The translations under genes and the position numbers were made by a program. The notes below the pieces were generated by a model that was not told the origin of the DNA, searched no databases, and saw nothing but the letters and a program-made list of their open reading frames with translations. A stretch of 41,061 bases of DNA, taken from NCBI GenBank assembly GCA_020832345.1, contig JAFIEY010000025.1, positions 1-41,061 of the forward strand. Direction: 5' to 3'. Origin of the DNA: Cryomorphaceae bacterium (GTDB taxonomy: Bacteria; Bacteroidota; Bacteroidia; Flavobacteriales; Schleiferiaceae). How positions within the stretch are numbered: position 1 is the first letter of the stretch; the number at the start of each line of letters is the position of its first letter. This document shows, in pieces, positions 6,241 to 26,575 of this stretch.

Positions 6241-6266
6241 GATTACAATGTTTAAAAAGATTAAAA

Positions 6267-7352: not shown

Positions 7353-7363
7353 GGCAATGCGAA

Positions 7364-8572: not shown

Positions 8573-8602
8573 GGCGTTCGTTTTATTGTTGCCATTTTGA
8601 TT

Positions 8603-8616
8603 GCCAAAAAAATGCC
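8603..8616 (-). promoter_or_regulatory. Sigma-54-like promoter (GG-N10-GC) for DUF1972 GT unit
   Basis: Minus strand reads AGGCATTTTTTTGGCAA: GG at 8616-8615 and GC at 8604-8603 with exactly 10 bases between. The implied start near 8592 leaves a leader of about 20 bases before ATG 8572. The pattern GGCAT-N4-TTTGGCAA is also seen before the T9SS gene. The -14 base is G rather than the usual T. Confidence 0.45.
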
Positions 8617-8670
8617 TAATTGCAGAGCCTTTGCAATTCAAATACTTACGAATTTTGCGCAGCAAATTTA

Positions 8671-8685
8671 TTCCAAAAAATGGAA
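8671..8685. promoter_or_regulatory. Palindromic enhancer candidate TTCCA-N5-TGGAA, site 1
   Basis: TTCCAAAAAATGGAA, a perfect inverted repeat with an A-only spacer. A partial second half-site follows (TTTTTTGGAA ending at 8704). It lies 98 bases from ATG 8572 and about 86 bases from the implied transcript start. The same 15-mer pattern recurs at 14331, 21666 and 26561. Confidence 0.65.
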
Positions 8686-8716
8686 AATTTTAGATTTTTT
8701 GGAAAATTATTGATGT

Positions 8717-8853
8717 AAAATTGAGTCTGCTCTAAAAAGTCCCTTTCTGCAAAAATATTCCTTGTCGATAGACTTTTGAATCCTCACTTGCTCCGGTTCA
8801 AAAATCCCCTCGATTTTGATTGAAATCATCTTTTTTAGAGTGGACCCAAAATT
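8717..8853. mobile_element. MITE-like element copy 2 (125 bp) with target duplication
   Basis: Element 8723-8847 flanked by the perfect 6-bp direct repeat AAAATT (8717-8722 and 8848-8853). Terminal inverted repeats are GAGTCTGCTCTAAAAAG at the left and, read on the other strand, a near-identical end at the right (8831-8847). An inner hairpin pairs TTTTGAATCC with GGTTCAAAA. It inserted inside the last codons of the glycosyltransferase gene at 8835-9920 and now supplies its stop codon. It is about 94% identical to copy 6. Confidence 0.88.
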
Positions 8854-9920
8854 TGAACGATCCGAAGAATGAAATTTGATTCCGAAAAAATTTCAACCCG
8901 TTCCAGGGCAGCTTTAGATAAATTTGAATATTGTCGTCCACATATATTCAATAATGCTTGTTGAAGATCGGCAGTTTTTCGGGAATCCACGGCAAAACCC
9001 GTTTTACCTTCTTCAATAACTTCAAGAATACCACCAACCGGTGGCACAATAGCCGGCAATCCATACGCCATACCCTCGATGATGGTCAGGCCAAAAGTTT
9101 CAATCCAACCATCAGAACGGGATAAATTTACAATCACATCGGCCCAGCTGTAAAATGGGTGCAAATCGGATTGCGCACTGTAAACTGTGAGGTTGTCGGA
9201 AAATTTTGTGTCATTAAAAAAAGAATCGATTTCAATTTGATTCGCATTAATGACCAAACGAAAGTTTTTATCGGGATTGTTCTTGGCCAATTTTACAAAT
9301 TCAAAAACGCCCTTGTACTTCTTGAGAGAGCAAACCATCAATATATTTCCACTAAATCCCTCCCTTTTATTTTTCCGTGCCTTTTGCAAAAAAACATCCT
9401 CAATGGCATTATATACCAAATGATTTTTTACACAATTGGTGTGGTGGCTTTCTTCCACAAACCGGGAAACATTAATGATGTCCATGGCGGTAATTTCCAC
9501 CGTGAAAAACAACCACCACTTTAACAATTTGGGTTTTACCGTACTTTCATGGATGTGGTAAATCACCCTACAACCTCTTAATTTTCCAGCCCAGGCAGCA
9601 CCAAAGGGCAACACTGTATTGACGTAAACCACATCGCTTTTCCGCAGAAAAAACAACAACCTAAAAAACAATAATAGTTGGGAAATGGTAAAGTTGACCA
9701 ATCTAATCCACGGATTGTTAGCAAAGACATACCAATGCCCATGGGTTTCTATTCCCTCCAAATCGGACAGGAATCCCTTTTGATGGCCCGAGGTAAAAAG
9801 ATGTACCTCAAAACCATGGTGCGGCAAAGCACGCAGCAATTGCGACAGCACTTTTGGACTGCCACTAAAATCATTGAGCAAATGGGCTGCAATGATTCTA
9901 TTTGAATATTTTTTTACCAT
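8835..9920 (-). CDS. GT4-family glycosyltransferase (EPS)
   Basis: 361 residues with the two-Rossmann GT-B layout. The GT4 donor-site motif appears as ETFGLTIIEGMAYGLPAIVP near residues 285-305, with the EX7E glutamates; the N-terminal acceptor domain has a Gly-rich start (NDFSGSPKVLSQLL). It should transfer a sugar from a nucleotide donor to the growing lipid-linked repeat unit; donor and linkage cannot be told. It overlaps the upstream glycosyltransferase by 7 bases, so translation is probably coupled. The last residues after VQIL (GPL, stop) come from the terminal inverted repeat of MITE copy 2. Removing the element and one target copy restores an ending of VQILHQ and stop, so the protein is essentially intact. 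Confidence 0.85.
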   Translation of the reverse strand: MVKKYSNRIIAAHLLNDFSGSPKVLSQLLRALPHHGFEVHLFTSGHQKGFLSDLEGIETHGHWYVFANNPWIRLVNFTISQLLLFFRLLFFLRKSDVVYVNTVLPFGAAWAGKLRGCRVIYHIHESTVKPKLLKWWLFFTVEITAMDIINVSRFVEESHHTNCVKNHLVYNAIEDVFLQKARKNKREGFSGNILMVCSLKKYKGVFEFVKLAKNNPDKNFRLVINANQIEIDSFFNDTKFSDNLTVYSAQSDLHPFYSWADVIVNLSRSDGWIETFGLTIIEGMAYGLPAIVPPVGGILEVIEEGKTGFAVDSRKTADLQQALLNICGRQYSNLSKAALERVEIFSESNFILRIVQILGPL

Positions 9921-11134
9921 TGACTGTATATTTTTTTCAATTGCTCACCGCGGCGATCCCAATGAAACACTTCTTCAAACTGTTTGCGTGCAGCCATTCG
10001 CATGGCGCGATGCTTGTCAGGGTAAGCATATAGCGTGGTCAAAGCGCGGGCTAATTTTAGCACCGTATTGTCGTAATCTTGATGGGGAATGGCAAAACCA
10101 CACTCGGAGTTAATGAATTGCCCCGGACCTTCATTGTCGAGACAAATGACGGGAACGCCAAAGGAAAGCGCTTCCGGCACCACCATCCCGGCACCCTCAT
10201 GGGAGGGAAACAGGAACGCCGAAGCCTGAGAAAAACGCTTCATGAGTTCACTGCGCTCTATCCAGGAAATAAATTTCACGTAGTCCGTTATGCCTTTTTC
10301 TTCAGCAATTTTTCTCAACAATGGCTCCTCCGGCCCACTGCCGACAAGGAGTAATTCACAGCGCAATTTGTCTTCCGCATTGAGATTATTTACAAAATCT
10401 CCAAATGCATGAAGGGTTAGATCAAATCCCTTTAGGGGCACAAATCTACCCGCAGAAATAACGGTAAAAGGCATACCGGAGGCAAGTTCTTTTTCCCAGC
10501 CAAAATCTTGGGTTGCCACAGACGGAATTATAGAATAATTTTTCTTTAGTCTTAAGGTTTTTGGCACTTCCACATTCATACACCATATATGATCTGCTTT
10601 AGTCCTTGTTTTGCGAAGCGCGGGGGAAAGTCGCCAAAAATACTGTTTTACCCACATGGTAATTACATCCTTTACCCGGTGTTTTTTATCGTAATACTTG
10701 AGATATTGAACCGGGATTTGCGGGTGATGCCCCACGGGACCCCACACAAATGGCACTTTTAATTTCCACAAAAAAGACGGCGACCAGTCGTTGTGAAAAT
10801 TGAGGTTATGGGCCAGATCAAATTCAATTTTTTGCTTTTTAATAAAGGATACGACACCGCGCTGCCACATAAGATAATACAACATAGCACCACGACCTCC
10901 GCGTTTCCAAAAGCGCATCCAGTAGGGCGTATCATAATACAGAAAAAGCATGTTGTCGTATTCCTTTTGCGGGTTTTCGGCCATGTACTTTTCAATCGCG
11001 GGTTTGTTATTTTCCCGCGTTATGGCAATGACTTTGTGAAATCGGGCAATCTGAAACACGAAATTCCATCCCATTCCATCCTCGGAACCCTTATAGGGAT
11101 TTACAGCATAAGTAGTGGCAACAACGGTCTTCAT
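9914..11134 (-). CDS. GT4-family glycosyltransferase (EPS)
   Basis: 406 residues, GT-B fold. The C-terminal donor-binding part shows ISAGRFVPLKGFDLTLHAF, the strand LLLVGSGPEEPLLRKIAEE and HEGAGMVVPEALSFGVPVIC, the classic GT4 pattern with both glutamate positions. The N-terminus (TTYAVNPYKGSEDGMGWNF) resembles GT4 enzymes of exopolysaccharide clusters. It probably adds one sugar of the repeat unit at the cytoplasmic face of the inner membrane. It overlaps the acyltransferase gene by 4 bases (ATGA type) and the next glycosyltransferase by 7, so it is a middle gene of a tightly packed operon. Confidence 0.87.
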   Translation of the reverse strand: MKTVVATTYAVNPYKGSEDGMGWNFVFQIARFHKVIAITRENNKPAIEKYMAENPQKEYDNMLFLYYDTPYWMRFWKRGGRGAMLYYLMWQRGVVSFIKKQKIEFDLAHNLNFHNDWSPSFLWKLKVPFVWGPVGHHPQIPVQYLKYYDKKHRVKDVITMWVKQYFWRLSPALRKTRTKADHIWCMNVEVPKTLRLKKNYSIIPSVATQDFGWEKELASGMPFTVISAGRFVPLKGFDLTLHAFGDFVNNLNAEDKLRCELLLVGSGPEEPLLRKIAEEKGITDYVKFISWIERSELMKRFSQASAFLFPSHEGAGMVVPEALSFGVPVICLDNEGPGQFINSECGFAIPHQDYDNTVLKLARALTTLYAYPDKHRAMRMAARKQFEEVFHWDRRGEQLKKIYSQW

Positions 11135-11826
11135 TTGGCACTTCGTGTTTTTAATATTTTGGCGGGAACACCGCCTATGATACTATTGGCCGGAAAGGAT
11201 TTATTGACAACAGCACCTGCAGCAATGATGCATCCATCCCCAATTTGCACGCCATCTAAAATGGTCACTTTACTTCCTATCCAACAATTTTTTCCGATGT
11301 AAATTCCTTTGCGGGTTACGCCTTGAAAACGAATTGGGGTTTCCAGGTCATCGGCTACGTGATTTTCCGGGTGACAACTCAAATACTGACCCACAATACA
11401 ATCGTCATCAATGGTCAATCCGCCAGCACCACCCAAATAAGCATATTCACCAATACCGACGTTATTTCCAATGGTAATATGTTCACCGATATGATTCAGA
11501 GACGTTGAAACCACTACACGGCTATATGCGCCTATACTTACATTATTTCCGAGGGTAATGCCTTTTTTTCCTAGGGCACTCAAATACACCCGATCACCGA
11601 GCTTTAGAAATTTTCCAAAGGTGATTTTGGGGGTGTTAAAAAAGCGAACACCTCTTCCCAGCAAAGCCATTTTTGGGTTTTTTCCCAGAAATAGCAATTT
11701 ACATCCGCGCAACATACTCCACACTTGATCCCAGATAAAGGAAATCAATCCCACTGTATTCAAATTCGGATCAAAGGAAAAATTGGGGTTACGCATGCGG
11801 ATGATTCGCTGTACAAGTCCCTTCAT
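11131..11826 (-). CDS. Left-handed beta-helix acyltransferase (hexapeptide repeat, WcaF/Maa-like)
   Basis: 231 residues with at least eight imperfect hexapeptide turns: ITLGNNVSIGAY, ITIGNNVGIGEY, LTIDDDCIVGQY, IYIGKNCWIGSKVTILDGV, VQIGDGCIIAAGAVV. The end has the family hallmark IIGGVPAKILKTR. The conserved His of this family is probably in the HPENHVAD segment. Such enzymes form trimers and acetylate sugars using acetyl-CoA; here the sugar is likely part of the exopolysaccharide. The gene sits between a kinase fusion and two glycosyltransferases with a 1-base gap and a 4-base overlap. Confidence 0.88.
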   Translation of the reverse strand: MKGLVQRIIRMRNPNFSFDPNLNTVGLISFIWDQVWSMLRGCKLLFLGKNPKMALLGRGVRFFNTPKITFGKFLKLGDRVYLSALGKKGITLGNNVSIGAYSRVVVSTSLNHIGEHITIGNNVGIGEYAYLGGAGGLTIDDDCIVGQYLSCHPENHVADDLETPIRFQGVTRKGIYIGKNCWIGSKVTILDGVQIGDGCIIAAGAVVNKSFPANSIIGGVPAKILKTRSAK

Positions 11827-11827
11827 G

Positions 11828-14212
11828 TTATATGAGTTTCTGGGTTATATTATTTGAAATCAATTGCATGGTAAGCTTGAGTTCGATGTTTTCCACCGGA
11901 ATATATTGCCCGCGGTTGCGACGGCTCAATTTCCCAAAGAGATTGAGATAATCGTGTGTCAATCGAGTAATGGTAACCTCGTCTAATTCTTGTTTGCGCT
12001 TTAGGATAACCTGCGGATCGGCATAAAGGAAAAAGTTGAGGTTGGGTTGCATAAGCAAGGCATAACCTGCGCGAAGAAACCATTTGGGCAAACGGATATT
12101 GCTGCGAACGCTGTCGTTGATAAAATCAAAATAATACCTGTCGTAAAGGACTACATGTCCGCGAAGCACGTGTTTGAAATAGATAACAAACTGCCCAACC
12201 AGATAATCGAGGTAGTAATATCCAAACCGCAAAAGGGAACTGAGAACATTTCGGTTGTTTCCCTGGCGAGGCAAAGTATCTGCAGCTTGTTTTTCCGCTT
12301 GAGCTTTCCCTACCACCATGGCTTTTAGAATAGGCAGCAGTGAAGGACGGTGACGTATGACCACCACCCGACGACGAAGTTTTTTCTCAATTTCGATTTT
12401 GGTGTGTTCGATAATGGTTGATTTTCCGGCACCATCAACTCCGCTAAAGGTTATGATCATGCCTTTTTGCGAAAACATTTGAATCAAAGTATCCCAAATA
12501 TAGGTGATGGTGTTTTTTATTTTGGCCCATCCCATGTTGAAGGATTTTTTTAGCATATATACTTTTAATGATTTTAAGGCTGAAGTGTCGCCCACATAGA
12601 CCCCGTAAATCAGGTCATCCGTTTTTTGTTCGCTTTTACTCATGAGCAATTCAAAAGGCATATATTTGGCGGGCACTTGCTGGCCATTTAATCCGTAAAA
12701 CAATCCGATAAACCTAGCCGTATCAAGCAAACTGGCTTTTTTAACGCGATTCAAATCGCGCTCCGCATGATCGATAATGGTTTGAATATCCATGTAAACC
12801 GTTTGTTTGCGCTTTAACTGGTGGATAAAATCAACGCTGAGTAAACCGTTGTCTTGTGTTATGACAAACAAATTGGTCATCGAGCGTTTGGACACTACTT
12901 TAATGTGATCCACCAATGGGTGATTCCTCAAATATGCAATGGTCTTTTTAGCATCATCTCTGTGAATACACATGTCCAAATCGGAATAAGCACTCAACTT
13001 TTCCGGCGCGTTGTTAGAAAGCTTTAATCCGGCATAGGGTTTTTTGTCAAGGTGGTCGAATAAATCGAGGATGACCAAACCGCGAACATCTTCATTTTTT
13101 TGTAAAACATAACTTAGTGCTTCATTCCACACATCGAGCAACCACTGTACCTGAACGTGCCAATTGGTTTGCAAATTATACACCTCCAAATAGTTGAGGG
13201 TATTGAGCAGCAGATAACCGCGCAACAACTCATCCATGGACTCTTCGTAAAACAATGCTTGATTCTGAAAGCTTTTTAATTCCGCATAAATTTCCTTCCA
13301 ACCTTTGTGCTCCATCAGCACACCTTTCTGAATTCCAAAATGAAAAAAGTCAAAAGCTTTGGGGTAATTATCGGAAGCGAGTTCCCAGTCATACACAAAA
13401 AGGGATCTGTTTTTACCCACATACATATTCCAAGGCGTAAAATCACCGTGGGCAAAGTGGGTAATGATGCGATTGGTTTTAATGGATTCCGTGAGTAATT
13501 CCAGCTTTTTAATAATGCCTGCCGGAATTTTAAAGTTGCGGTTTTTAAGCGCTTCCAATCGTTGGGGGATTTGGTGTAATTCCGCAAATTCCTGCCCGGT
13601 CATTTCGCGGGCCGATTTGGTCGCCATTTCATCAATGGCCTGCACGTGTTCCACCATCAAAGCTTTATGGCGAAGGGTATGATCGTTTGAGGTGGAAAGC
13701 TCTGCCCCGTGATTTCCGGTGGCCAAAACTTTAGGGTAGGTAAAAGTCCGAATGGAAAGTTGATCCAGTATAGAAAGGTTTTCCACTTCGCGGTTGATCA
13801 ACCCGGTGGATTTTTCTGAAATGCTGATTTTGGCAAATGAAGGAATCGCATTTGCCTTGTACAATACGTATTTTTGATTGGGGCCGGTGGTGCCGGTAAA
13901 CAATGACCAGTTTGAAGAAAAGGGATCGACAAAGGCGCCCTCTTGATTTTTAGGAAGGGTAAATACAAATTTGGCAAACACCAAACGCTGCAAACGAAGG
14001 GCAAAAATAAGGCGAATTAAAAAGGCAAACAATCCGGCGCGAAACCCGTCAATATTGTAAAAGCGCAAGAAGGTGGGCTTATTAGCACCGGCGGGCCAAA
14101 TCCAACGAATACTGCCATCCGGATTTTTGATGGCCAAAAAACGAGCTTCCGTCGTTGGCACTCCATCTTGCAATTCGGTGTTTACGTTGAGATTGTTTAG
14201 TATTACTTTCAT
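11828..14212 (-). CDS. Three-domain fusion: APH-like kinase, nucleotidyltransferase-like domain, thymidylate kinase-like P-loop kinase
   Basis: 794 residues from ATG 14212; GTG 14236 would add 8. Region 1 (about 100-370) has the aminoglycoside phosphotransferase/choline kinase catalytic loop HGDFTPWNMYV (255-265) and the metal-binding DWE (275-277). Region 2 (about 375-530) has a nucleotidyltransferase-like strand, SAYSDLDMCIH (about 407-417) with two Asp, followed by SVDFIH. Region 3 (about 583-794) is a P-loop kinase like thymidylate kinase: FSGVDGAGKST (589-599) and the DRYYFDF motif with the DR pair near 690. I infer phosphorylation of a small molecule or sugar linked to EPS or its export; no known enzyme with this exact order comes to mind. 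First gene of the operon running to 8835. Confidence 0.75.
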   Translation of the reverse strand: MKVILNNLNVNTELQDGVPTTEARFLAIKNPDGSIRWIWPAGANKPTFLRFYNIDGFRAGLFAFLIRLIFALRLQRLVFAKFVFTLPKNQEGAFVDPFSSNWSLFTGTTGPNQKYVLYKANAIPSFAKISISEKSTGLINREVENLSILDQLSIRTFTYPKVLATGNHGAELSTSNDHTLRHKALMVEHVQAIDEMATKSAREMTGQEFAELHQIPQRLEALKNRNFKIPAGIIKKLELLTESIKTNRIITHFAHGDFTPWNMYVGKNRSLFVYDWELASDNYPKAFDFFHFGIQKGVLMEHKGWKEIYAELKSFQNQALFYEESMDELLRGYLLLNTLNYLEVYNLQTNWHVQVQWLLDVWNEALSYVLQKNEDVRGLVILDLFDHLDKKPYAGLKLSNNAPEKLSAYSDLDMCIHRDDAKKTIAYLRNHPLVDHIKVVSKRSMTNLFVITQDNGLLSVDFIHQLKRKQTVYMDIQTIIDHAERDLNRVKKASLLDTARFIGLFYGLNGQQVPAKYMPFELLMSKSEQKTDDLIYGVYVGDTSALKSLKVYMLKKSFNMGWAKIKNTITYIWDTLIQMFSQKGMIITFSGVDGAGKSTIIEHTKIEIEKKLRRRVVVIRHRPSLLPILKAMVVGKAQAEKQAADTLPRQGNNRNVLSSLLRFGYYYLDYLVGQFVIYFKHVLRGHVVLYDRYYFDFINDSVRSNIRLPKWFLRAGYALLMQPNLNFFLYADPQVILKRKQELDEVTITRLTHDYLNLFGKLSRRNRGQYIPVENIELKLTMQLISNNITQKLI

Positions 14213-14260
14213 AATTCGGGTTAAAAGGGTTGACACAAAGTGTAGCTTGACCCTAAGAAC

Positions 14261-14275
14261 GCCAATAGTCGTGCC
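14261..14275 (-). promoter_or_regulatory. Sigma-54-like promoter for kinase-fusion/GT operon
   Basis: Minus strand reads GGGCACGACTATTGGC. The -24 part GGCACG and the following TTG match the sigma-54 consensus TGGCACG-N4-TTGC closely, but the GG-to-GC spacing is 11 if the final GC is used. The implied start is near 14250, 38 bases before ATG 14212 or about 14 before GTG 14236. Confidence 0.45.
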
Positions 14276-14330
14276 CGGAGAAAAACCACCTGTTTACCAA
14301 TTACTTGGCAAATAAAATCTCGCTAAAACA

Positions 14331-14345
14331 TTCCAAATTTTGGAA
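14331..14345. promoter_or_regulatory. Palindromic enhancer candidate TTCCA-N5-TGGAA, site 2
   Basis: TTCCAAATTTTGGAA, a perfect inverted repeat 118 bases from ATG 14212 and about 88 from the implied transcript start. Partial half-sites (TTTGGAAAAA near 14358 and TTGGAA near 14377) follow upstream. Confidence 0.65.
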
Positions 14346-14421
14346 AACAAGCGGTAATTTGGAAAAATTACCATTCTTGGAATCTGCGCATCACACGGGC
14401 AATATTATGCCGGGCTATTGC

Positions 14422-14575
14422 AATTTTGAATCTGCTCCGAAAAGTCCCTTTCTGCCAAAATCTTCATTGTCGGTAGATTTTTGAATCGTCACTAACAGTT
14501 AGTTAGCGCCGGCTCTATAATCTCCTCTGCGTCGATTTTGATTGAAATCATCCTTTTTAGAGTGGACTCAACATT
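14422..14575. mobile_element. MITE-like element copy 3 (142 bp)
   Basis: Element 14428-14569, with left end GAATCTGCTCCGAAAAG and right end CTTTTTAGAGTGGACTC. Flanks AATTTT (14422-14427) and AACATT (14570-14575) agree at 4 of 6 positions, so the target duplication has decayed or is uncertain. The middle carries the longer variant with TCACTAACAGTTAGTTAGC, shared in type with copy 5. It overlaps the 3' end of the O-antigen ligase gene and supplies its stop codon. Confidence 0.82.
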
Positions 14576-15852
14576 GGAATCCCTAAACGTTTCAAATGCA
14601 ATTTCTGTCGGAGGGTAAGCAAGGTGTTTTTCTGAAACGAGATATACAATATCACCAATTGATAAAACAGAATACCGTAATTTGATTCCCCAAAGATTCC
14701 AAATTCTGTAAACGAATTAATGATAATGGGAATCAACAAACAAAAGAGCATAAGTTTCTTTTCACTGTCCTCTCTCAAAATCGCCCTAAAGGTAAAGAGC
14801 ATTTGAAAAAACACCACGGTAAGACCGATAAATCCCAAATTCATCAAAACCTGCATAAAAGTATTGTGGGTCATTTTTCCCGGATAGGTATGTGCACCCT
14901 GAAAATACTCCTTGTAGTCGATGCGCATAAAACCAAAACCCAGAAGTGGTTCTCGCGGCAAACCTTCATTAATAAGGGCTTCCCAAAAGGGCAAGCGTCC
15001 GGTAAGGCTCATAACTTCCTCCATGCGCTCAGGATCACCATCTTTTAATACGACCTTATAAATGGCCAAAGGAGCAACCACAATCATCACAGCTATGGCG
15101 CCCAGTGCAAATTTTCGCTTCTCAGATTGCAAAACGTGAAATCCAATAATGAGAAGGGCACCGATGAGCGATGAACGAGAACCCGTGGCCATCAAGCCGT
15201 AAAACAGAACCAACAATTTAAAAATCGTCCACCAGCGATGGTGATTTCTTCGAAGATCAAAAAGCAACCCGGCCACGCCAACCCCTGCCAACATACCCAG
15301 TTCATTAGGATTCATAAGATACCCCCCCAATCGCGCTTCCTCTCCCCCATGGGTTAAACGATAAAACACGTCCGGGGCAATCCACATCCCCAACACAAAA
15401 ACCAGAATCAATGCAAAAGCGCTGTTTCCAACCAAATTATACATTCTTATTTGGTGATCCTTATAATACAAATCCAGCAAATACAGGCTCTTCACAAAGA
15501 AAAAACAAAACACCAAGGTCTGGGAAGTCATAAACCATTGAAGTGCACTGTACCCAACATCGGTGCTCCACATCAGGGATGCAAAACCCAGCAAAAGGTA
15601 CAGACCGTAAAATAAAATGGCCAAGGGATTATTTCCTTTGAGCGAATCCACCGCCCCGTGCTGCACAATACTCTGATATACCCGGTAAGAAGCCAGCAGC
15701 ATACCCATCCGACCGACCACCTTAATGGCGCGGGTTATCATCACATTTTCACTCCAGGTAAAAAAACAAGCAATCATGAGAAGAAGAACAACGAACAATT
15801 GCAAGTTGGTCTTCTTTAAAAAAGTCGCATTATCGATTCGCTGGTTTCTCAT
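14557..15852 (-). CDS. O-antigen ligase/polymerase family membrane protein (Wzy/WaaL, Wzy_C domain)
   Basis: 431 residues, about 10-12 membrane segments. Family landmarks are GGYLMNPNELGMLAG, the short periplasmic-loop motif TGSRSSLIG, TGRLPFWE and the His-containing loop GKMTHNTFMQVLMNLGFIG. Proteins of this family either polymerise lipid-linked repeat units (Wzy) or ligate glycans to an acceptor (WaaL); the presence of a flippase and Wzc/Wza-type genes upstream makes a Wzy polymerase more likely here. It follows a glycosyltransferase by 6 bases and is the last gene of its operon. Its final residues LSPL and stop derive from the right inverted repeat of MITE copy 3; without the insertion the protein would end PMLQ and stop. 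Confidence 0.85.
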   Translation of the reverse strand: MRNQRIDNATFLKKTNLQLFVVLLLMIACFFTWSENVMITRAIKVVGRMGMLLASYRVYQSIVQHGAVDSLKGNNPLAILFYGLYLLLGFASLMWSTDVGYSALQWFMTSQTLVFCFFFVKSLYLLDLYYKDHQIRMYNLVGNSAFALILVFVLGMWIAPDVFYRLTHGGEEARLGGYLMNPNELGMLAGVGVAGLLFDLRRNHHRWWTIFKLLVLFYGLMATGSRSSLIGALLIIGFHVLQSEKRKFALGAIAVMIVVAPLAIYKVVLKDGDPERMEEVMSLTGRLPFWEALINEGLPREPLLGFGFMRIDYKEYFQGAHTYPGKMTHNTFMQVLMNLGFIGLTVVFFQMLFTFRAILREDSEKKLMLFCLLIPIIINSFTEFGIFGESNYGILFYQLVILYISFQKNTLLTLRQKLHLKRLGIPMLSPL

Positions 15853-15858
15853 GGGCCA

Positions 15859-16959
15859 TTAGCGATATAGTTTGTCCATTTGCTCCACAATAATAGGCCA
15901 GGAAAATGCTTTGGCAATCATTTTTTTGCTCTGTTCCCTCAAATCATCACCTTGTCCATCTTCATACATTTGCGCCATCTGTTCAAGACCGAGCACCAAA
16001 TCGGGAACGCGACTATTCGGAACAGAAATCCCCGCATTGTAATCTGTAATATAAGTCCCTACATTTGTCGCTTCGGTTACGAGGGAAGGAACACCCAGTG
16101 CAGCCGCTTCCAAAACGGCGGAGGGCAGCCCCTCATTCCGGGAAGGATGCGCAAAAACGTGCATTTGGGCTATCAACGCATCCTTATCCTCGCCAAACTT
16201 TTTACCAAATAAAATCACGTTTTCCAGCTTCTTTTCCGCAATAAATTTTTCGATAAACTTTCGTCCATCACCATCACCAATTATCCAAAGCTCAGTGTTT
16301 TCACGGGTTTTACAAAAAATATTGAAAGCGTGGAGGAGCATGTCCAAACCTTTGGTGTGAATATCCAACCGACCGACAAACCCGATGGTAAAAGCTTCGT
16401 TTTTGACTACATCAATTTCGTTTTGGGTTGTGGGCGTAAACCCATACGGCAATAGAATTAAATCCTTTTCAACCTTTAGCATTTGCAGTCCGATGATTTC
16501 ACTCGCCCCGATGCAGTGAATGCGATGGGCATTTTTTAGGAGCGCTTTTTCAAAGAGTTGGGCATATAATTTTTTTCGCAACTGACCTCTTTCCATGGCA
16601 ATAACGTTGTACGCACCATGTGGGGTCAGGACATATTTAATGCGATGTTTTGCAAAAAATTTTCCGAGGGTTCCGTACACCGGAATCCAGCCGCCATGCA
16701 GGTGAAATACCGCCCCGGATTTTTGAAGTATGGCCGTCTTTAGCGCAGCATCAATCCCAAATGGATTTCTTTTTTTAGAAAACAACCGGGTGGTAAAATT
16801 CCGATCTGGATAATTGTGTGCAACATCCGCAGTAATGCCCCAAACCTCCACATTCCTTCCGGATGCAGCCTGCTCAGTTGCCAATTGGTAAACGACTTTA
16901 TTGACACCGTTCAGCCGATCGGGGTTGGCTTTCCCTAAAATGAGATGAACGATTTCCAT
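15859..16959 (-). CDS. GT4-family glycosyltransferase (EPS)
   Basis: 366 residues, GT-B fold. The N-terminal domain includes NGVNKVVYQLATEQAASG and VLTPHGAY; the donor domain shows IGFVGRLDIHTKGLDMLLHA, LWIIGDGDGRKFIE and HPSRNEGLPSAVLEAAALGV, with both conserved Glu of GT4 enzymes. It should add a sugar to the lipid-linked unit on the cytoplasmic face of the membrane. Its start overlaps the end of the flippase gene by 25 bases, and the ligase follows after 6 bases, so it is an internal gene of the 21544-14557 operon. Confidence 0.88.
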   Translation of the reverse strand: MEIVHLILGKANPDRLNGVNKVVYQLATEQAASGRNVEVWGITADVAHNYPDRNFTTRLFSKKRNPFGIDAALKTAILQKSGAVFHLHGGWIPVYGTLGKFFAKHRIKYVLTPHGAYNVIAMERGQLRKKLYAQLFEKALLKNAHRIHCIGASEIIGLQMLKVEKDLILLPYGFTPTTQNEIDVVKNEAFTIGFVGRLDIHTKGLDMLLHAFNIFCKTRENTELWIIGDGDGRKFIEKFIAEKKLENVILFGKKFGEDKDALIAQMHVFAHPSRNEGLPSAVLEAAALGVPSLVTEATNVGTYITDYNAGISVPNSRVPDLVLGLEQMAQMYEDGQGDDLREQSKKMIAKAFSWPIIVEQMDKLYR

Positions 16960-18158: not shown

Positions 18159-18161
18159 CCT

Positions 18162-20348: not shown

Positions 20349-20363
20349 TATTGCTTGTGTATT

Positions 20364-21113
20364 TTACAAAAGTGCTCCCATAAAAATGGCTGCTGCCGTA
20401 AGGGTCGTGGAAAAAGGAATAACCGTGGCAATCCTCCGATCAAAATTCTTGTGCTTTTTCGAAGGCACAACCACTACGTCACCGGGATGAAGATTAATGT
20501 TTTTTAAATGATAATCCCCGGATTTGGTCAAATCGATATTAGCGACATGCACATTTTCTCCCACTTGTCGGAACACTTTGATGTAACGCATTTCGGCATA
20601 AAACTCAAATCCTTTACACCGTGCAATGATTTCTATTAGTGTGTTTTTTTCCTTATCAACATTGATTACTTGCGGATCCCGAACCTCACCCAGTATGGTA
20701 ATTTCCCGGTTGAGCACTTTTATATCGACAATGGGATTCCGCACCCATTCGCCAAAATGAACCCGTAATTCCTCCTTGAGCTCAATGATGGTCTTGTTTT
20801 CGACTTTTAATGTACCCAACTTCGGCACCTCAATATTTCCGCGTGAATCCACCATCAACCATTTTCCATATACCTCGTTGGAATTATAAATCCCGTAAGA
20901 TGAACCCACGCTCAAATCATCCTGACCCCATACGCTGATGGTAATTTTATCGTCTTTGCGAATGTGGTACTGATAGCCTTCATCATACAAAAAAACACTG
21001 TCGAGATCCTCAACAGTGTTATTTGCATTTTTTTGCCAAAATATATTGTGGGTCTTACAAGAACCCAAACCAAAAAGGGCTATCAACAGAATGAAAGAAA
21101 ATCTTACAGTCAT
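20364..21113 (-). CDS. Polysaccharide export outer-membrane lipoprotein (Wza/OPX family)
   Basis: 249 residues. A lipoprotein signal peptide with lipobox GLGSC puts the lipidated Cys at residue 19. A Poly_export domain follows (about 50-130: YHIRKDDKITISVWGQDDLS, then GNIEVPKLGTLKV) and one SLBB-type domain (about 135-220: ITILGEVRDPQVINV and LHPGDVVVVPSKK). The C-terminal 17 residues (PFSTTLTAAAIFMGALL) are hydrophobic and could form the outer-membrane helix. OPX proteins form the outer-membrane exit pore for polysaccharide together with the co-polymerase. Its ATG overlaps the stop codon of the response-regulator gene by one base (TAATG), so translation is coupled. Confidence 0.9.
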   Translation of the reverse strand: MTVRFSFILLIALFGLGSCKTHNIFWQKNANNTVEDLDSVFLYDEGYQYHIRKDDKITISVWGQDDLSVGSSYGIYNSNEVYGKWLMVDSRGNIEVPKLGTLKVENKTIIELKEELRVHFGEWVRNPIVDIKVLNREITILGEVRDPQVINVDKEKNTLIEIIARCKGFEFYAEMRYIKVFRQVGENVHVANIDLTKSGDYHLKNINLHPGDVVVVPSKKHKNFDRRIATVIPFSTTLTAAAIFMGALL

Positions 21114-21544
21114 TACAATAGGGAAAGGAAGGATTTAAATATCGACTTTTTTCTACTTCTAAGTGCGTCGCGAATATCGTCAATTTTTTCCAAAGTCTTT
21201 CTAATCGTTTCTTCCAATCCAGATTCTTTTCTAATATAGTCAAAAGCCCCGTGTTTTAAGGAGTCCACGGCGGTTTGGATGTCTTCCTGAGCTGAGACCA
21301 TCACAACAAATATGTTGGGATTAAAGCGCTTTATCTTCTTTAACACTTCAAATCCGCTATAAACATCCATATTGTGATCGAGAAAAATGATTTCCGGATT
21401 CTGGTGAAGTGCATCCAAACAATCTACGCCACTTTCAAAAATTGTGACGTCTGTTTGCCCCATTCCCTCTAGAATTTGCTTCATCATATTGAGGTGAAAT
21501 GCATCGTCGTCAACCAGAAATATTTTTTTTACCGGGGTATCCAT
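21113..21544 (-). CDS. Single-domain (CheY-like) response regulator at the head of the EPS operon
   Basis: 143 residues from ATG 21544. A receiver domain covers almost the whole protein: acidic pair in FLVDDDAF (9-16), phospho-acceptor Asp56 in IIFLDHNMD, a switch Ser in MVSAQED and the conserved Lys in DYIRKES. There is no output domain, only a short basic tail rich in Arg/Lys and Leu. It may act through protein contact, for example on the co-polymerase, or drain phosphate from the kinase at 26599. In-frame ATGs at 21556 and 21616 also exist; 21616 would overlap the promoter region. It is first in the operon running to 14557 and is preceded by two palindromes. Confidence 0.85.
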   Translation of the reverse strand: MDTPVKKIFLVDDDAFHLNMMKQILEGMGQTDVTIFESGVDCLDALHQNPEIIFLDHNMDVYSGFEVLKKIKRFNPNIFVVMVSAQEDIQTAVDSLKHGAFDYIRKESGLEETIRKTLEKIDDIRDALRSRKKSIFKSFLSLL

Positions 21545-21577
21545 GTGTAAAAGCATTAATTTGTTTGAATTGCTATT

Positions 21578-21591
21578 GCCAAATTTAAACC
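21578..21591 (-). promoter_or_regulatory. Sigma-54-like promoter (GG-N10-GC) for response-regulator/OPX/Wzc operon
   Basis: Minus strand reads CGGTTTAAATTTGGCAA: GG and GC separated by exactly 10 bases, with the TTTGGCAA end shared with the promoters at 8603 and 26481. The implied start near 21567 leaves about 23 bases of leader before ATG 21544. A second GG-N10-GC string (GGGGTGTAATTTGC) at 21624-21637 is an alternative. Confidence 0.42.
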
Positions 21592-21646
21592 GAAAATTCA
21601 AGTTGCTACAAAACATTACTTTAGCAAATTACACCCCGCTTATTTT

Positions 21647-21680
21647 TTCCAAAAAATGGCAATATTTCCAAAAAATGGAA
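21647..21680. promoter_or_regulatory. Tandem palindromic enhancer candidates TTCCA-N5-TGGAA, site 3
   Basis: Two sites 19 bases apart: TTCCAAAAAATGGCA (21647-21661, one mismatch) and TTCCAAAAAATGGAA (21666-21680, perfect). Their centres are about 87 and 106 bases upstream of the implied transcript start. A spacing of nearly two helical turns would place two regulator dimers on the same DNA face. Confidence 0.65.
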
Positions 21681-21723
21681 AATTAGCGCAGCAAAACAAA
21701 TGATATGACGACAAACCCTTTAC

Positions 21724-21766
21724 AAAAAAACAACGCCCAATCCGATGAAATTCAGAATGGGCGTTG
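21724..21766 (-). terminator. Rho-independent terminator after the T9SS surface-protein gene
   Basis: On the minus strand CAACGCCCA (21766-21758) pairs with TGGGCGTTG (21739-21731) around an 18-base loop, followed at once by a T run (TTTTTTT opposite the A run at 21724-21730). It lies 25 bases past the stop at 21792 and separates this gene from the EPS operon promoter. Confidence 0.8.
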
Positions 21767-21791
21767 CGTTATTATTCCATTTGTGATGTGT

Positions 21792-24700
21792 TTATTTTTT
21801 CACTACTCTACCTGTGTGCAGGTCACCGTTCATGTCAATGACCATTATGATGTACAATCCGGGCTTTAGTCTGGCCAAATTCAAATCCAGGGTTGGATTG
21901 CGATTGGCGTCTCCCTCAAATACCGTCCGACCATCGGCGGTAACAACTTGCCATCTGTCCATTTTAACCGGATCACTTACACTAAAGTATTTGCGATCTA
22001 GGGTTACAGTGACATCACCTACGGTAGGATTGGGATATACAGTTAGGTTTTTCACTTCATTGCTGCCCTTGTGCTTGATGGTGTGACGGATGGTGTTGGT
22101 TACAATTGGCTCTTCAAAGTCGAAGATGATGTTGGCGCGATTGCGAAGGATGGCTCCACCCGCTGCATCTTTTTTGGGTTTCACGCGATACTTAAAGTAT
22201 CCATGTGCACCTATTGAATCCTCAACAGATGGTGGCAAACCAATATGGATATAAGATACATCCAATTTTCCTTGTGGGCTCAAGGTATAGGTATATGGGT
22301 GGCTGGATGCAATAATCTCAAAAGAAGCAGGATCCATATCAGTCGGCAACTGGTTTTCGAGAAATACGTAGGTGGCTTCAAATGTACCGACATTCTCGAA
22401 GCGAATGGTATAGGTCACCCACTGGTCGCGGTTGATATACCCTTCTTCACCTTCACCTCTTGGTGTGGCCAACATATCGTTGGGGTCAATGGCACCTACA
22501 ATTTCAATTTCCTCTTCTACGTGGTTGTTGGTTGTGTCCAAATCGTTTCCACTGGCCATGGCAGATGCACTGAGAATTTTTAATTGTCCAATGTAAGCAT
22601 CAAGACCAACGCTATCAATAAGTGAAAGGGATATGACCTCGCCTACACCCAACTCGGGGAATGTCCACTCAAAGGTTCTTCCAAACTGGTAGGATGGTAC
22701 ACTGTCTGAGGATACCAGGTACAGGTGCTCGGGATAGGTGATTGACATGGTTACGTTTTCGGCTTTTTGGGTACCTTCATTTTTCACCATTAATACGGTT
22801 TCGTTGGTAAACCCTCTTCTCCAGGCAGTAGTGGCAACGTTTACACTTAAGTCGTAACCCATGGCCAGTGCCGTGACTGGAATTTCAATACTTACCGTAT
22901 CAGAAGATGCTCCGATGAAATAGCTGACTTGGTTGCCCGTCCAGTGATTGCTTTTGATTTGCGGCTCCACAAAATCTTCCAGGGTACGGATGAAAAACAC
23001 ACCTCGGTTGTTGGAGCTAAAACGGGTGGTTCCTTCGTGGATGGCCAGACCGAGATTGGGCACGATGGCCTCGCCGGAATCGCGAACCCCATTATCGTTT
23101 TCGTCGTGATAGACAACACCAGTTACAACCCGGCCACCGACTTCCATTACTGAATTGTACTTGTTGATCTGACAGGTTGTAACCAACTGCTGAATACCCG
23201 AAGGCCAAAGGACAACCACGCTATCGACGTTGAAATTACTTCCAAGTCCAATGTGGATCTTATCGGTTTGTTGGCTGCCAAATCCGTTTACGGGCATCAA
23301 CTGACGGTGTTGCCACACGCCACCTGCTTTTACCGAAACTCTGGCACCAATGGCCATGCGGTTGCTATTGGATCCTTGCAGTGAAAAACCAATCCAGTTG
23401 TTGCCGTTTCCATTGTTACAGAAAAGACGGGTTGGCCCTTCGGTGTGGGTTGAAACCGCCATATCCAACTGTCCGTTGCGGTTGTAGTCCGCGATGGCTA
23501 TTCCGTAGGCTTTACCGATATTGGCGGAAACCAACTCGTCGTTTTTGCGCTCTAAGTTTCCTGTGCCATCATTGATGTAAAGGAAAGAAGGACTTTGGTC
23601 GTTGGTCACATAAGCGTCGAGGTAACCGTCATTATTTGCGTCAAAGAAAACCGCGCCGTGACCATCACCACCATCGGTTACGATAGCACCGGAAGTTTGT
23701 TTTTGGAAAGTTCCGTCACCATTATTGATGTACAAGTCGTTGTTTTGTCCGGAGGCATTTACCACGAGTAAGTCAAGGAAACCATCGTTATTGATATCAC
23801 CCCAGGCAGCACCTACACTATTTTTCTCATCGCTTACAATATCGCCTTCGGTCACTTTTTCAAATTGGAAGTTTCCGAGGTTTTTAAATAAGGTGTTGGG
23901 TTTGTTGTCGCCATTGGGGATGAAAATATCCACCAGACCATCGTTGTTGTAGTCTGCAAGGATGGGCGCCATAGCACGCTCACTCACAGTGCTAACGGGC
24001 GTGTTGGTGATTCTGGTAAAGGTATTGTTTCCGTTATTGCGATACAGATGGTGGAATCTGGTGGAGAAAAAGTTGGTTATAACTAAATCCACATATCCGT
24101 CATTGTCAAAATCTGCAAAGGCAGCCCCGTGGAAATATTGAGGATGAATATCCAAACCGGAGTTATTCACTTTAGAGAAGTTTCCCTGACCGTTGTTGAT
24201 GTACAACTGACTTTTGTGTTGTGTAGCGTTGACCAAAACCACGTCTTTGCGACCGTTGTTGTTGATATCGGCCCAAACGGCAGCAACAGTAGTACCCTTT
24301 GCCTCGGCGATGGGGTTATTATAAATCCTGGTAAAAGTTCCGTCGCCATTGTTTTTGTACAATTCGTTTTTGGCATTGGGGTCTTTGGTAACCACAAAAA
24401 GGTCTTCCCATCCGTCGTTGTCGTAATCTACCCAGCTCAAGTTCCAGCTATCGTTGGAAAGGGTGTCCATTATAGAAGGTGTGCAAGTGTCAAAAATGAG
24501 GTTGGCCACATCATTGGTATTGTTTTGAACGCCGCGACTAAATCTGGACTGATGTACACGGTTGTTGATTTTCCCTCTTACATTTACCGAAATACTCATT
24601 ACCGTTCCGTGTGGAATTTGCGAACCGTTGGCTCTGGAAGCGGAAACGAGCGCTTTTACCTCACAGGTATAGTTATCGCCGCTATTTACCGCACCTTGAT

Positions 24701-26456
24701 TGGCAAAAGTGATTCTGGTTTCACGGTTGTTGATATTCACCTGACCGGAATCTACAAGCACACCATTTTTGAAAAGTTTGGCAGAAACGGGAATCAATCC
24801 TGAAGCCAACTCAATTTCAAATTCTGTGTCGTCAATATTTACATTATTGTTAAGGCTGCAAGCCAATTCAACCTGATCTCCCGGCTTGGCATCAGTTCTA
24901 TTGATGCTTCCGGTTTGTCTAAACTCGTGCGCCAAGGAAGATCCAAAATGGGTCATCCAGTTGTCGTTGAAATTGGTCGATAAAACCGCGATGTTTTCCG
25001 TTGCCTCTATGATTACGTATGGGCAATTAGAGTTGTTGCTGTTGTTTAATGGTCCTCCTCCGCGATTATTTCTTCTATTGCCTGAATTTCCGGGACCACT
25101 ACTATTTGGCAAAGCATTTTTCACGGCCTGCCACTGGTTCACACGGTAATTTGCATCTGCATACCGTCCAGCATCAATGTTGAAAGTTTCGCTATAAACC
25201 TGACCATTGGTTTTAGCATCCTTAACGGTAACCGTGGTATTTTTATCTCCGGCAAAAAGGTAAAAATGTCCGGTTGGCCCGTTAAATGTTTGTCCGGTAA
25301 AAGGATTGACCACATTGCTCTGCACGCTTGGCGGCAACATATAGGCCATGAAATTTTTTCCCGAAGAAGTACCGTTGTTGGCAGAAACCATGGTGGCCAT
25401 ATCGGAAGACGAGTGAGAACCGGTTTCCATATAATTAGCTTCCATTACAGCTACGCGCTTTCCGTTGTCGCAGGTCACTCTAAAAACGGTAGGATAAGTG
25501 GCATTTCCATGATCTTTTCCAACCCAGTCAGCCGTAGTTTGCTCATCCATCTGCCAAGAATCTACCAGCTTCCACTGGCCGTTTTCAAAACGGGTAAGCT
25601 CTACGGTATTGCTATCATCCATTGAAGCAATTCTCACCTCCTGCTCACCGGATTGCTGATAAGGCACGGCAAAATAAAATAATTCGCCCACTCCACTACC
25701 ATTAGCAGATGGCACATACGCACCACCATCGCGGGCATTTCCCCACAAGGCACCAGACTGAACACTTACATCCTTGTTGGTTTCTACCAGATAGGTTCCA
25801 CCAGTCTCCATCAAATCGCGACCGTCGCTGTGGTAATAAATTAAATCCTCACCCGGGCTGATGGTTCTTTGCACCACCAATTGCTTATTTTCAAGATTAA
25901 CGTTGGTGTATCCGGTTTGTGTAGTTGAAGAAGTTGAAATGCGATAAATGGAAACTGAAGTGTTTGGCTCATACGCAAACACATTTATGTCACGGGGTGA
26001 GATTGCAACTTCAGAGGCGTAAACAAAAAACTGTTGTCCTATAGATGACTTATTGGTGGCGGGAACAAAATCGTGCTGCCAATCACTATCAGCTGACATG
26101 GAAGCGTAAACCAACTTATCACTTTCGATGGTGTAATAATCTCCGTTGCGTCTTAAAATACCATTGGAGGCAAAAGTTGCATCGTCATTTACGCCATTGT
26201 CTTTAATATATAAAACATAAGATTGTCCGGCCATCAAAACACCGGTATGACTATCGTCATCATCACCGTCCATATCATCATCAATAATACTGAAGTTGGT
26301 GCTGTCTTCAATGGCGGTAACGATAAGCGCGACATCTTTATTTACCGCGTTATTATTGGGCGGCACAAAAATATTGAAATAGGTAGAGGGAGCACTTTGC
26401 GCCCAAACGCCTAAAAGAGAAAAAACCAATACGATTGTGAGGACTATTTTTTTCAT
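21792..26456 (-). CDS. Giant T9SS-secreted surface protein with FG-GAP/VCBS repeats, UnbV/ASPIC domain and C-terminal sorting domain
   Basis: 1554 residues. Signal peptide 1-20 (ending GVWAQ). The N-terminal third resembles the IgGFc-binding N-terminal domain (ALWGNARDGGAYVPSANGSG, PFTGQTFNGPTGHFYLFAGD), with an Asp-rich stretch near 55-70. The middle has seven FG-GAP/VCBS-like blocks, each with a calcium-binding DxDxDG-type loop (DYDNDGWEDLFV, DFDNDGYVDLVI, DYNNDGLVDIFI, DINNDGFLDLLV, DANNDGYLDAYV and two more). An ASPIC/UnbV domain follows, then an SdrD_B-like unit (YHDENDNGVRDSGEAI), a DUF7619-like domain and a type A sorting domain (TVYPNPTVGDVTV to the C-terminal KK). I infer a calcium-stabilised, cell-surface or released adhesin/matrix protein. 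It shares the palindrome with the EPS operons and has its own terminator. Confidence 0.88.
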   Translation of the reverse strand: MKKIVLTIVLVFSLLGVWAQSAPSTYFNIFVPPNNNAVNKDVALIVTAIEDSTNFSIIDDDMDGDDDDSHTGVLMAGQSYVLYIKDNGVNDDATFASNGILRRNGDYYTIESDKLVYASMSADSDWQHDFVPATNKSSIGQQFFVYASEVAISPRDINVFAYEPNTSVSIYRISTSSTTQTGYTNVNLENKQLVVQRTISPGEDLIYYHSDGRDLMETGGTYLVETNKDVSVQSGALWGNARDGGAYVPSANGSGVGELFYFAVPYQQSGEQEVRIASMDDSNTVELTRFENGQWKLVDSWQMDEQTTADWVGKDHGNATYPTVFRVTCDNGKRVAVMEANYMETGSHSSSDMATMVSANNGTSSGKNFMAYMLPPSVQSNVVNPFTGQTFNGPTGHFYLFAGDKNTTVTVKDAKTNGQVYSETFNIDAGRYADANYRVNQWQAVKNALPNSSGPGNSGNRRNNRGGGPLNNSNNSNCPYVIIEATENIAVLSTNFNDNWMTHFGSSLAHEFRQTGSINRTDAKPGDQVELACSLNNNVNIDDTEFEIELASGLIPVSAKLFKNGVLVDSGQVNINNRETRITFANQGAVNSGDNYTCEVKALVSASRANGSQIPHGTVMSISVNVRGKINNRVHQSRFSRGVQNNTNDVANLIFDTCTPSIMDTLSNDSWNLSWVDYDNDGWEDLFVVTKDPNAKNELYKNNGDGTFTRIYNNPIAEAKGTTVAAVWADINNNGRKDVVLVNATQHKSQLYINNGQGNFSKVNNSGLDIHPQYFHGAAFADFDNDGYVDLVITNFFSTRFHHLYRNNGNNTFTRITNTPVSTVSERAMAPILADYNNDGLVDIFIPNGDNKPNTLFKNLGNFQFEKVTEGDIVSDEKNSVGAAWGDINNDGFLDLLVVNASGQNNDLYINNGDGTFQKQTSGAIVTDGGDGHGAVFFDANNDGYLDAYVTNDQSPSFLYINDGTGNLERKNDELVSANIGKAYGIAIADYNRNGQLDMAVSTHTEGPTRLFCNNGNGNNWIGFSLQGSNSNRMAIGARVSVKAGGVWQHRQLMPVNGFGSQQTDKIHIGLGSNFNVDSVVVLWPSGIQQLVTTCQINKYNSVMEVGGRVVTGVVYHDENDNGVRDSGEAIVPNLGLAIHEGTTRFSSNNRGVFFIRTLEDFVEPQIKSNHWTGNQVSYFIGASSDTVSIEIPVTALAMGYDLSVNVATTAWRRGFTNETVLMVKNEGTQKAENVTMSITYPEHLYLVSSDSVPSYQFGRTFEWTFPELGVGEVISLSLIDSVGLDAYIGQLKILSASAMASGNDLDTTNNHVEEEIEIVGAIDPNDMLATPRGEGEEGYINRDQWVTYTIRFENVGTFEATYVFLENQLPTDMDPASFEIIASSHPYTYTLSPQGKLDVSYIHIGLPPSVEDSIGAHGYFKYRVKPKKDAAGGAILRNRANIIFDFEEPIVTNTIRHTIKHKGSNEVKNLTVYPNPTVGDVTVTLDRKYFSVSDPVKMDRWQVVTADGRTVFEGDANRNPTLDLNLARLKPGLYIIMVIDMNGDLHTGRVVKK

Positions 26457-26480
26457 TGTTTAATGTTTTGCTTACCAGTT

Positions 26481-26494
26481 GCCAAACCTATGCC
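26481..26494 (-). promoter_or_regulatory. Sigma-54-like promoter (GG-N10-GC) for T9SS surface-protein gene
   Basis: Minus strand reads GGGCATAGGTTTGGCAA, with GG and GC exactly 10 apart. This is very close to the string before the DUF1972 GT unit (AGGCATTTTTTTGGCAA). The implied start near 26470 leaves about 14 bases before ATG 26456. A second, overlapping register (TTGGCAACTGGTAAGCA) would start only about 2 bases from the ATG and is less likely. Confidence 0.45.
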
Positions 26495-26560
26495 CAATAA
26501 AAATCACAACCTTTTTCATTGATTTTTAGCATTTTAATATTTCACTTTAGGCTTAAAAAT

Positions 26561-26575
26561 TTCCATTTTTTGGAA
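26561..26575. promoter_or_regulatory. Palindromic enhancer candidate TTCCA-N5-TGGAA, site 4
   Basis: TTCCATTTTTTGGAA, a perfect inverted repeat 104 bases from ATG 26456 and about 98 from the implied start. Two more TGGAA half-sites (26578 and 26590 regions) follow towards the histidine-kinase gene. Confidence 0.65.

Follow-up and report, generated by a model that had tools for sequence, protein, structure and literature searches.

A conserved palindrome, TTCCA-N5-TGGAA, stands upstream of the exopolysaccharide (EPS) gene units of a Cryomorphaceae bacterium (GCA_020832345.1, contig JAFIEY010000025.1) and of a gene for an FG-GAP protein with a sorting domain of the type IX secretion system (T9SS). 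We consider it very probable (about 0.88) that this word is the upstream activating sequence (UAS), or enhancer, of the NtrC-family response regulator encoded at 30373-31722, which would switch the EPS units and the T9SS-sorted protein jointly via sigma-54. The whole stretch of 41,061 nucleotides, here called the window, is the entire contig C153 of the home genome. Computation established the sites, their conservation with the units, their association with a regulator clade, a tandem spacing, and an enrichment of -24/-12 and integration host factor (IHF)-like sequences.

Results

The palindrome in the window and the home genome

The window scan finds perfect copies of the palindrome at 8671-8685, 14331-14345, 21666-21680 and 26561-26575, all intergenic, and a tandem copy with one mismatch at 21647-21661, exactly where an earlier note on this DNA had placed them. 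They precede the first start codons of four gene units (8572, 14212, 21544 and 26456) by 98, 118, 121 and 104 bp, in agreement with the 98-121 bp claimed there. The argument of the earlier note that such placement is hardly due to chance also holds, since a mean of 0.11 perfect copies is expected and none of 100 dinucleotide shuffles reaches four. With one mismatch allowed the window has nine matches against 3.2 expected, and 1 of 100 shuffles reaches nine; the loose version of the motif would therefore be statistically weak by itself.

The home genome (4.03 Mb) holds 19 perfect palindromes, four of them within the 41-kb contig (binomial p 4e-5). Seven have A/T-only spacers, again four in the window contig (binomial p 4e-7), with two more on contig C154 and one on C7. 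All seven lie outside open reading frames (ORFs) of at least 100 aa, while 8 of the 12 palindromes with G/C-containing spacers fall inside such ORFs. The genome-wide distribution of the A/T-spacer motif is thus non-random, as the earlier reading demanded. That reading had also singled out the A/T-only spacers. This is true of the window sites, but such a spacer is no part of the code and the spacer sequence is free, because sites of G+C-richer relatives carry CGCCG and CGCGG (two Chryseolinea sites) or GATGC and GTAGC (Hymenobacter); elsewhere spacers are A/T rich as a rule.

The units and their putative regulators are the following, with the kinase and regulator genes directly upstream of the EPS cluster and the whole cluster on the minus strand:

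6267..8572, minus: unit 1, a DUF1972 glycosyltransferase and a Glycos_transf_4 transferase
8835..14212, minus: unit 2, an APH/thymidylate-kinase-like fusion (794 aa), a hexapeptide transferase and two glycosyltransferases
21113..21544, minus: first gene of unit 3, a stand-alone receiver domain (REC)
14557..21113, minus: rest of unit 3, EPS export and polymerisation genes wza (20364-21113), wzc (18162-20348), wzx (16935-18158), a glycosyltransferase gene (15859-16959) and wzy (14557-15852)
21792..26456, minus: unit 4, a single gene for an FG-GAP/UnbV_ASPIC/DUF7619 protein with a T9SS C-terminal sorting domain
26599..30249, minus: hybrid histidine kinase (PAS, GAF, HisKA, HATPase, REC, Hpt), the proposed sensor
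30373..31722, minus: NtrC-family response regulator (REC, sigma-54 AAA+, Fis-like helix-turn-helix), the proposed reader of the sites

Among the 15 mapped window genes, only the regulator, the kinase and REC are regulatory by their domains. The earlier note had left the regulator of the sites unnamed; it is likely the NtrC-family protein encoded here. Pfam reports Response_reg and Sigma54_activat in this protein; it reported no Fis/HTH_8 model, and the C-terminal Fis-like helix-turn-helix was read by eye in the alignment. The protein carries the GAFTGA loop and the Walker A sequence GETGTGK, and GAFTGA is exact in 74 of 82 full-length regulator proteins (window included). The home genome has one rpoN match and, as sigma-54 activators, three strong matches (225-244 bits), a weaker one (74 bits) and seven below 34 bits. 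In most relatives that were mapped, the regulator gene is followed by a homologue of the kinase. The sorting domain of the unit 4 protein scores barely above the cut-offs (Por_Secre_tail 27.0 bits, cut-off 27; TIGR04183 24.7 bits, cut-off 23).

Conservation of the sites with the regulator and the units

A search with the regulator gave 62 loci, examined with flanks of up to 10 kb on each side: 58 homologues from Bacteroidota or Balneolota, 50-73% identical, and four distant ones (L087-L090). These loci hold 90 perfect palindromes as compared with 3.3 in shuffles, all of them in the 58 Bacteroidota and Balneolota loci and none in the four distant loci; 81 of the 90 lie outside ORFs by mechanical ORF calling.

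Orthologues of the unit-first genes retain the site, here taken as a match no more than about 300 bp upstream that deviates at one position at most. It precedes 8 of 19 orthologues of the unit 1 glycosyltransferase (GT_7364), including all eight outside Hymenobacter, 11 of 16 orthologues of the first gene of unit 2 and 6 of 7 orthologues of the FG-GAP gene. For receiver proteins the count is 25 of 49, a figure that also covers receiver paralogues and, at some loci, the receiver domain of the regulator itself; among REC orthologues of at least 50% identity it is 9 of 9, and a tenth case belongs to a Balneolaceae genome in which a site lies 130 bp upstream of the REC gene (G097:C188:25210). Ten control genes, nine unit-internal ones and the kinase, have an upstream site in none of their 84 orthologues. 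The idea of a single regulon, put forward in the earlier note, is thus supported: other families and Balneolota also keep the site in front of the EPS units and of the FG-GAP gene with its T9SS tail.

Aquiflexum lacus and two Cognataquiflexum species have the complete cluster in the same gene order, with all four sites present (the regulator of C. aquatile lies outside the mapped stretch and was found in locus L030). In Brumimicrobium the FG-GAP gene and its site are both absent between the kinase and REC, and in a Saprospiraceae genome, which has the units in another order and unit 3 in reverse orientation, a site still stands at each of the four units. A genome of the same genus (G010) has the unit 2 site on one contig and one-mismatch sites before FG-GAP and REC on another (L040). 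One-mismatch sites also precede the unit 2 gene in the Hymenobacter loci L073, L079, L080, L081 and L085.

The regulator gene itself is preceded by a site in 20 of the 58 loci. In those loci the regulator looks self-controlled, because the palindrome precedes its own gene; this does not apply to the window. The loci concerned are mostly from Algoriphagus, Belliella and Echinicola, and such a site is present in all but a few of L050, L051, L053-L066, L068, L070, L076 and L084.

Promoter anatomy

Matches were scored against the familiar IHF consensus WATCAANNNNTTR and the -24/-12 consensus of sigma-54. The putative promoter parts in the window are:

8671..8685, minus: UAS of unit 1, perfect palindrome, upstream of the glycosyltransferase genes 7364-8572 and 6267-7352
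8690..8704, minus: unit 1, degenerate second copy (8/10 fixed bases), 19 bp farther upstream
8636..8648, minus: unit 1, IHF-like site, one mismatch to WATCAANNNNTTR, offset 22 bp from the UAS
8602..8618, minus: unit 1, sigma-54-like -24/-12 element TAGGCATTTTTTTGGCA, score 13/17
14331..14345, minus: UAS of unit 2, perfect palindrome, heading 11828-14212, 11131-11826, 9914-11134 and 8835-9920
14350..14364 and 14368..14382, minus: unit 2, two degenerate copies, at -19 (6/10) and -37 (8/10)
14295..14307, minus: unit 2, IHF-like site, one mismatch, offset 23 bp from the UAS
14261..14277, minus: unit 2, sigma-54-like element CGGGCACGACTATTGGC, score 12/17
21666..21680, minus: UAS of unit 3, perfect palindrome, distal copy, heading the REC, Wza, Wzc, Wzx, glycosyltransferase and Wzy unit
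21647..21661, minus: unit 3, tandem copy with one mismatch (9/10), 19 bp closer to the promoter
21566..21582, minus: unit 3, sigma-54-like element TTGGCAATAGCAATTCA, score 12/17
26561..26575, minus: UAS of unit 4, perfect palindrome, upstream of the FG-GAP/UnbV/T9SS-tail gene 21792-26456; no second copy above 7/10 bases
26480..26496, minus: unit 4, sigma-54-like element TGGGCATAGGTTTGGCA, score 13/17

The same anatomy was analysed for the whole class of sites. From 98 sites (window, L016, L017, L019 and relatives), 91 passed as intergenic, two L074 sites counted in, and 83 of these have a gene start within reach. Promoter statistics use 57 of the 83, after exclusion of 22 sites that could act in either direction and of four that are the upstream partner in a tandem pair; IHF and hexamer counts use 56, as L045, where the site lies in a terminator-like hairpin, was also excluded.

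Within 60 bp of the 91 intergenic sites there are 57 second copies with at least 8/10 bases, counting pair members twice and with related species not independent; 48 lie at 18-21 bp (among them 20 at -20, 11 at +20 and 8 at +19), five at -29 and four at other offsets. A -24/-12-like score of at least 12/17 is reached downstream of 33 of 57 sites, as compared with 3 of 57 on the reverse strand, 7.6% of shuffles and 20 of 175 siteless upstream regions of the same loci (p 9e-12). Without any prior model, the top enriched downstream hexamers are TTTGGC (24 of 56 sites; expectation about 3.5) and TTGGCA (23 sites; expectation about 3.4), both in keeping with the core of sigma-54 promoters. The exact IHF consensus occurs at 13 of 56 sites, against 0.7 in shuffles and 3 of 175 siteless controls (p 9e-7). 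The first TTGGC downstream of a site (36 sites) clusters near offsets 52, 63, 71 and 82, a phasing of about 10 bp with p 0.003, a value that is optimistic given the related sequences. Thus, the features of an enhancer-type promoter, a UAS upstream of -24/-12, tandem copies and an IHF site in between, are found statistically in the class, not in every member. The downstream elements are the parts that would be expected for looping activation by an NtrC-type protein.

Regulator clade and horizontal transfer

The site is distributed unevenly among regulator types. The 53 loci (window included) whose regulator has a recognition helix with IYN or IYK hold 90 perfect sites in 1030 kb, with at least one site in 41 loci. 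For the R-type (IYR), 20 of the 25 homologues in the family of the window genome were sampled with wider flanks; these 20, which are 49-57% identical, have a single site in 394 kb, with G/C in its spacer. Six more loci with another or no readable recognition-helix residue hold four sites. The R group is a single clade (100/99), separate from the rest of the tree. The alignments and the tree indicate that the site is tied to the regulator clade, not to a single recognition-helix residue.

The window regulator's own clade (starred in the tree, 18 rows) mixes Cyclobacteriaceae, Crocinitomicaceae, Cryomorphaceae, Saprospiraceae and Balneolota, and a regulator of the window type was found in only 2 of 88 family genomes (among matches with E <= 1e-120). 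Because of this mixture and the rarity within the family, the data suggest that cluster, regulator and sites were transferred horizontally together. A simple presence/absence test within the family is weak: 26 genomes with a homologue (E <= 1e-120) have 31 A/T-spacer sites (control pattern 14), and 62 genomes without one have 25 (control pattern 8). Twenty of these 56 sites, from seven genomes, were inspected; 14 lie inside ORFs and six are intergenic, namely the unit 2 site of G010, four in G060 and one in G023.

Sites outside the cluster

In the genomes of ten relatives 52 sites were listed, 29 in the regulator's cluster, G097:C188:25210 among them, and 23 elsewhere, and 21 of these 23, all with A/T spacers, lie inside ORFs. 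The regulon of these relatives therefore looks confined to the gene cluster. The three distal A/T-spacer sites of the home genome are all intergenic. One, on C154, lies 148 bp upstream of a CotH/LTD/T9SS-tail gene; an IHF consensus without mismatch is present at the usual offset, but the sigma-54-like score is only 11/17. A second is paired with a 9/10 copy 20 bp away (by eye) and lies 348 and 366 bp from a Fib_succ_major gene and an adhesin gene with a T9SS tail; the third has no clear gene nearby. An additional site with one C in its spacer lies 200 bp upstream of a T9SS-tail gene. It is plausible that one distant T9SS gene is a further target in the home genome, and a wider T9SS regulon, resting on few sites, is plausible as well. 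Contig C154 encodes two adjacent CotH/LTD/T9SS-tail proteins of 1107 and 1108 aa with the same domains (L017:1013-4336 and 4523-7849); a perfect palindrome stands directly upstream only of 1013-4336, not of its neighbour.

Further observations in the window

The 794-aa product of the first gene of unit 2 (11828-14212, minus) has APH-like and thymidylate-kinase-like matches, both weak and below the Pfam cut-offs. It is conserved and present in the collinear clusters of relatives, and one relative exceeds the Pfam cut-off for thymidylate kinase.

Intergenic DNA of the window also contains a dispersed repeat, some 145 bp long, whose inverted ends read TGAGTC..CTCTAAAAAG by eye and which resembles a miniature inverted-repeat transposable element:

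8716-8853, 14421-14571, 30293-30399, 34218-34362 and 35011-35148: repeat copies; 223-281 and 37445-37503: partial copies

In the genome 45 matches were found (40 of 573 first-look candidates scored), and because 12 of the 45 sit at the very start of a contig, the repeat probably breaks the assembly. A DUF4143/AAA_14 ATPase gene (35158-36516, minus) adjoins the copy at 35011-35148, and two 31-nt direct repeats 108 bp apart (36568-36706) lie on its other side. No RNA family of Rfam was found in the window at the gathering threshold.

Discussion

A conserved enhancer-like code upstream of these units is real. Its function we infer with high confidence; binding by this regulator, dependence on sigma-54, activation as the direction of control and the path of the signal are argued from sequence. 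In the mechanism that we propose, the adjacent hybrid histidine kinase (26599-30249) would sense a signal, leading to phosphorylation of the regulator. The phosphorylated regulator would bind pairs of sites separated by two helical turns, which mostly lie 50-85 bp upstream of -24/-12 promoters, and an IHF-like protein would bend the DNA between UAS and promoter, so that the AAA+ domain of the regulator could open the sigma-54 RNA polymerase at each unit. The outcome would be that EPS precursor synthesis, export and polymerisation are turned on together with the T9SS-sorted FG-GAP protein.

Short-arm palindromes serve many regulator families, and the word might belong as operator to a different dimeric regulator, such as an activator or repressor of the sigma-70 type, with the NtrC-type regulator merely co-located. 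The copA promoter of E. coli, as quoted in a paper on copper in Haemophilus (PMC10187127), contains ACCTTCC-N7-GGAAGGT. We regard this explanation as unlikely: in many families the site goes together with regulators of this clade, and it is seldom found near R-type homologues, it lies upstream of the regulator's own gene in about a third of the loci, it has the tandem two-turn spacing and stands upstream of sigma-54-like elements, and among the mapped window genes a DNA-binding domain occurs only in the NtrC-type regulator. A structural role of the palindrome as hairpin or terminator, with no protein bound, is less probable still, even though the L045 site of one relative does sit within a terminator-like hairpin. 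A terminator would not be expected to keep a fixed distance from start codons and promoter-like elements or to show the tandem spacing, and the ten arm bases are conserved although the spacer differs between sites, some spacers being all G/C; on the distances, the spacing and the variable spacer this role was dropped. Finally, two copies of the dispersed repeat (8716-8853 and 14421-14571) end near the sites of units 1 and 2, which could make the palindrome a by-product of the repeat. The palindromes lie outside the repeat copies, however, and no copy stands beside the sites of units 3 and 4. Considering also the 90 palindromes against 3.3 expected in loci of other families, the placement before orthologues and the way in which sites follow rearranged units, we take an origin by chance or from the repeat as refuted.

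Several observations weigh against an enhancer read by the NtrC-type regulator. The -24/-12 matches of the window are imperfect (13, 12, 12 and 13 of 17 for units 1-4), and an IHF-like site at the usual offset is present in just two of the four window promoters. In the wider class, the five second copies at -29 are off the two-turn spacing. The perfect site is absent from 12 of the 53 N/K loci, including 10 of the 13 with a full-length Hymenobacteraceae homologue; none of the 11 Hymenobacter orthologues of the unit 1 glycosyltransferase has a site even with one mismatch, and L039 lacks one upstream of its FG-GAP gene. The contrast between N/K and R types does not pinpoint the residue, because the R group forms one separate clade and the contrast is one between clades. 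Genome G060, which has an R-type homologue, carries four intergenic A/T-spacer sites (L217-L220) that are unexplained; they lie near a histidine kinase, a MutS-like gene, a gene for a DUF11/beta-helix protein and an uncharacterised gene.

If the sites are indeed the enhancers of this regulator, a broader picture may be drawn, which we offer tentatively and at somewhat less than even odds. A matrix regulon would travel between Bacteroidota families and into Balneolota with its own sigma-54 activator and enhancer word, and would recruit resident T9SS adhesin genes of the new host by gain of the word, coupling slime and surface proteins; here this would be the CotH/LTD protein on C154 and perhaps also the ice-binding-like adhesin. 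For joint control of EPS and T9SS surface proteins in environmental Bacteroidota there is no described operator, as far as literature searches go: full-text searches with motif strings and with Bacteroidota combined with sigma-54, NtrC, EPS and T9SS, in a coverage that leaves out most subscription papers, returned no description of it. A ten-base address with an identifiable activator and kinase would make the regulon readable from sequence in many species, cultured ones included, predict targets beyond the cluster and give an experimental handle on the timing of matrix production.

Control of the cell exterior by sigma-54 has been described before, and EPS and envelope genes are a general theme of it in a 2011 paper (PMC3162934), whose main text has no word beginning with Bacteroid- or TTCC, and of a 2025 survey of sigma-54 regulons (PMC12316311). 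The Bacteroidota targets given in the accessible part of the survey are chaperones, proteases, TonB and others, not this cluster. Closer in lineage is the sigma-54 regulon of Flavobacterium psychrophilum (PMC9723704), with -24/-12 promoters before genes for gliding and exported proteins including the sprB operon, whose adhesin is secreted by the T9SS. The phylum is that of the window; the available portion of that work names no enhancer motif, assigns no activator and has no EPS units among the described targets.

The closest known system is PrsK/PrsR of the PEP-CTERM/EpsH EPS systems of Proteobacteria (Haft et al. 2006, PMC1569441), where a Fis-domain NtrC-type regulator and a histidine kinase are encoded near EPS genes, and where promoters of genes for sorted surface proteins have a 17-nt motif, sometimes repeated, a mean spacer of 62.8 nt and a sigma-54 motif. 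Dependence of a PEP-CTERM gene on RpoN (PMC9850573) and PEP-CTERM targets of the Desulfovibrio regulator DVUA0057 in DAP-chip (PMC3333781) are reported in two further papers. Like this system, the window combines an NtrC-type regulator, a histidine kinase, EPS genes and a motif upstream of imperfect sigma-54-like matches. TIGR02915 (PrsR) is the nearest NCBIfam model of the window regulator, yet its 368.7 bits stay under the cut-off of 502.6, and by this curated cut-off the protein is not PrsR. The kinase is a PAS/GAF/REC/Hpt hybrid by domain content, unlike PrsK. PrsR motif 1 ends in TTTACA and was found by that paper in Proteobacteria only, whereas the window word is TTCCA-N5-TGGAA. The targets of PrsR carry PEP-CTERM tails, while the sorted protein of the window has a T9SS tail and sites also stand before EPS operons; no PEP-CTERM or exosortase family was found among the window proteins scanned, which were not all of them, and no genome search for these families was made. 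The window would seem to be a counterpart, in a different phylum, of the PrsK/PrsR design. If so, EPS clusters may have come more than once to include a sigma-54 switch with command over sorted surface proteins as well.

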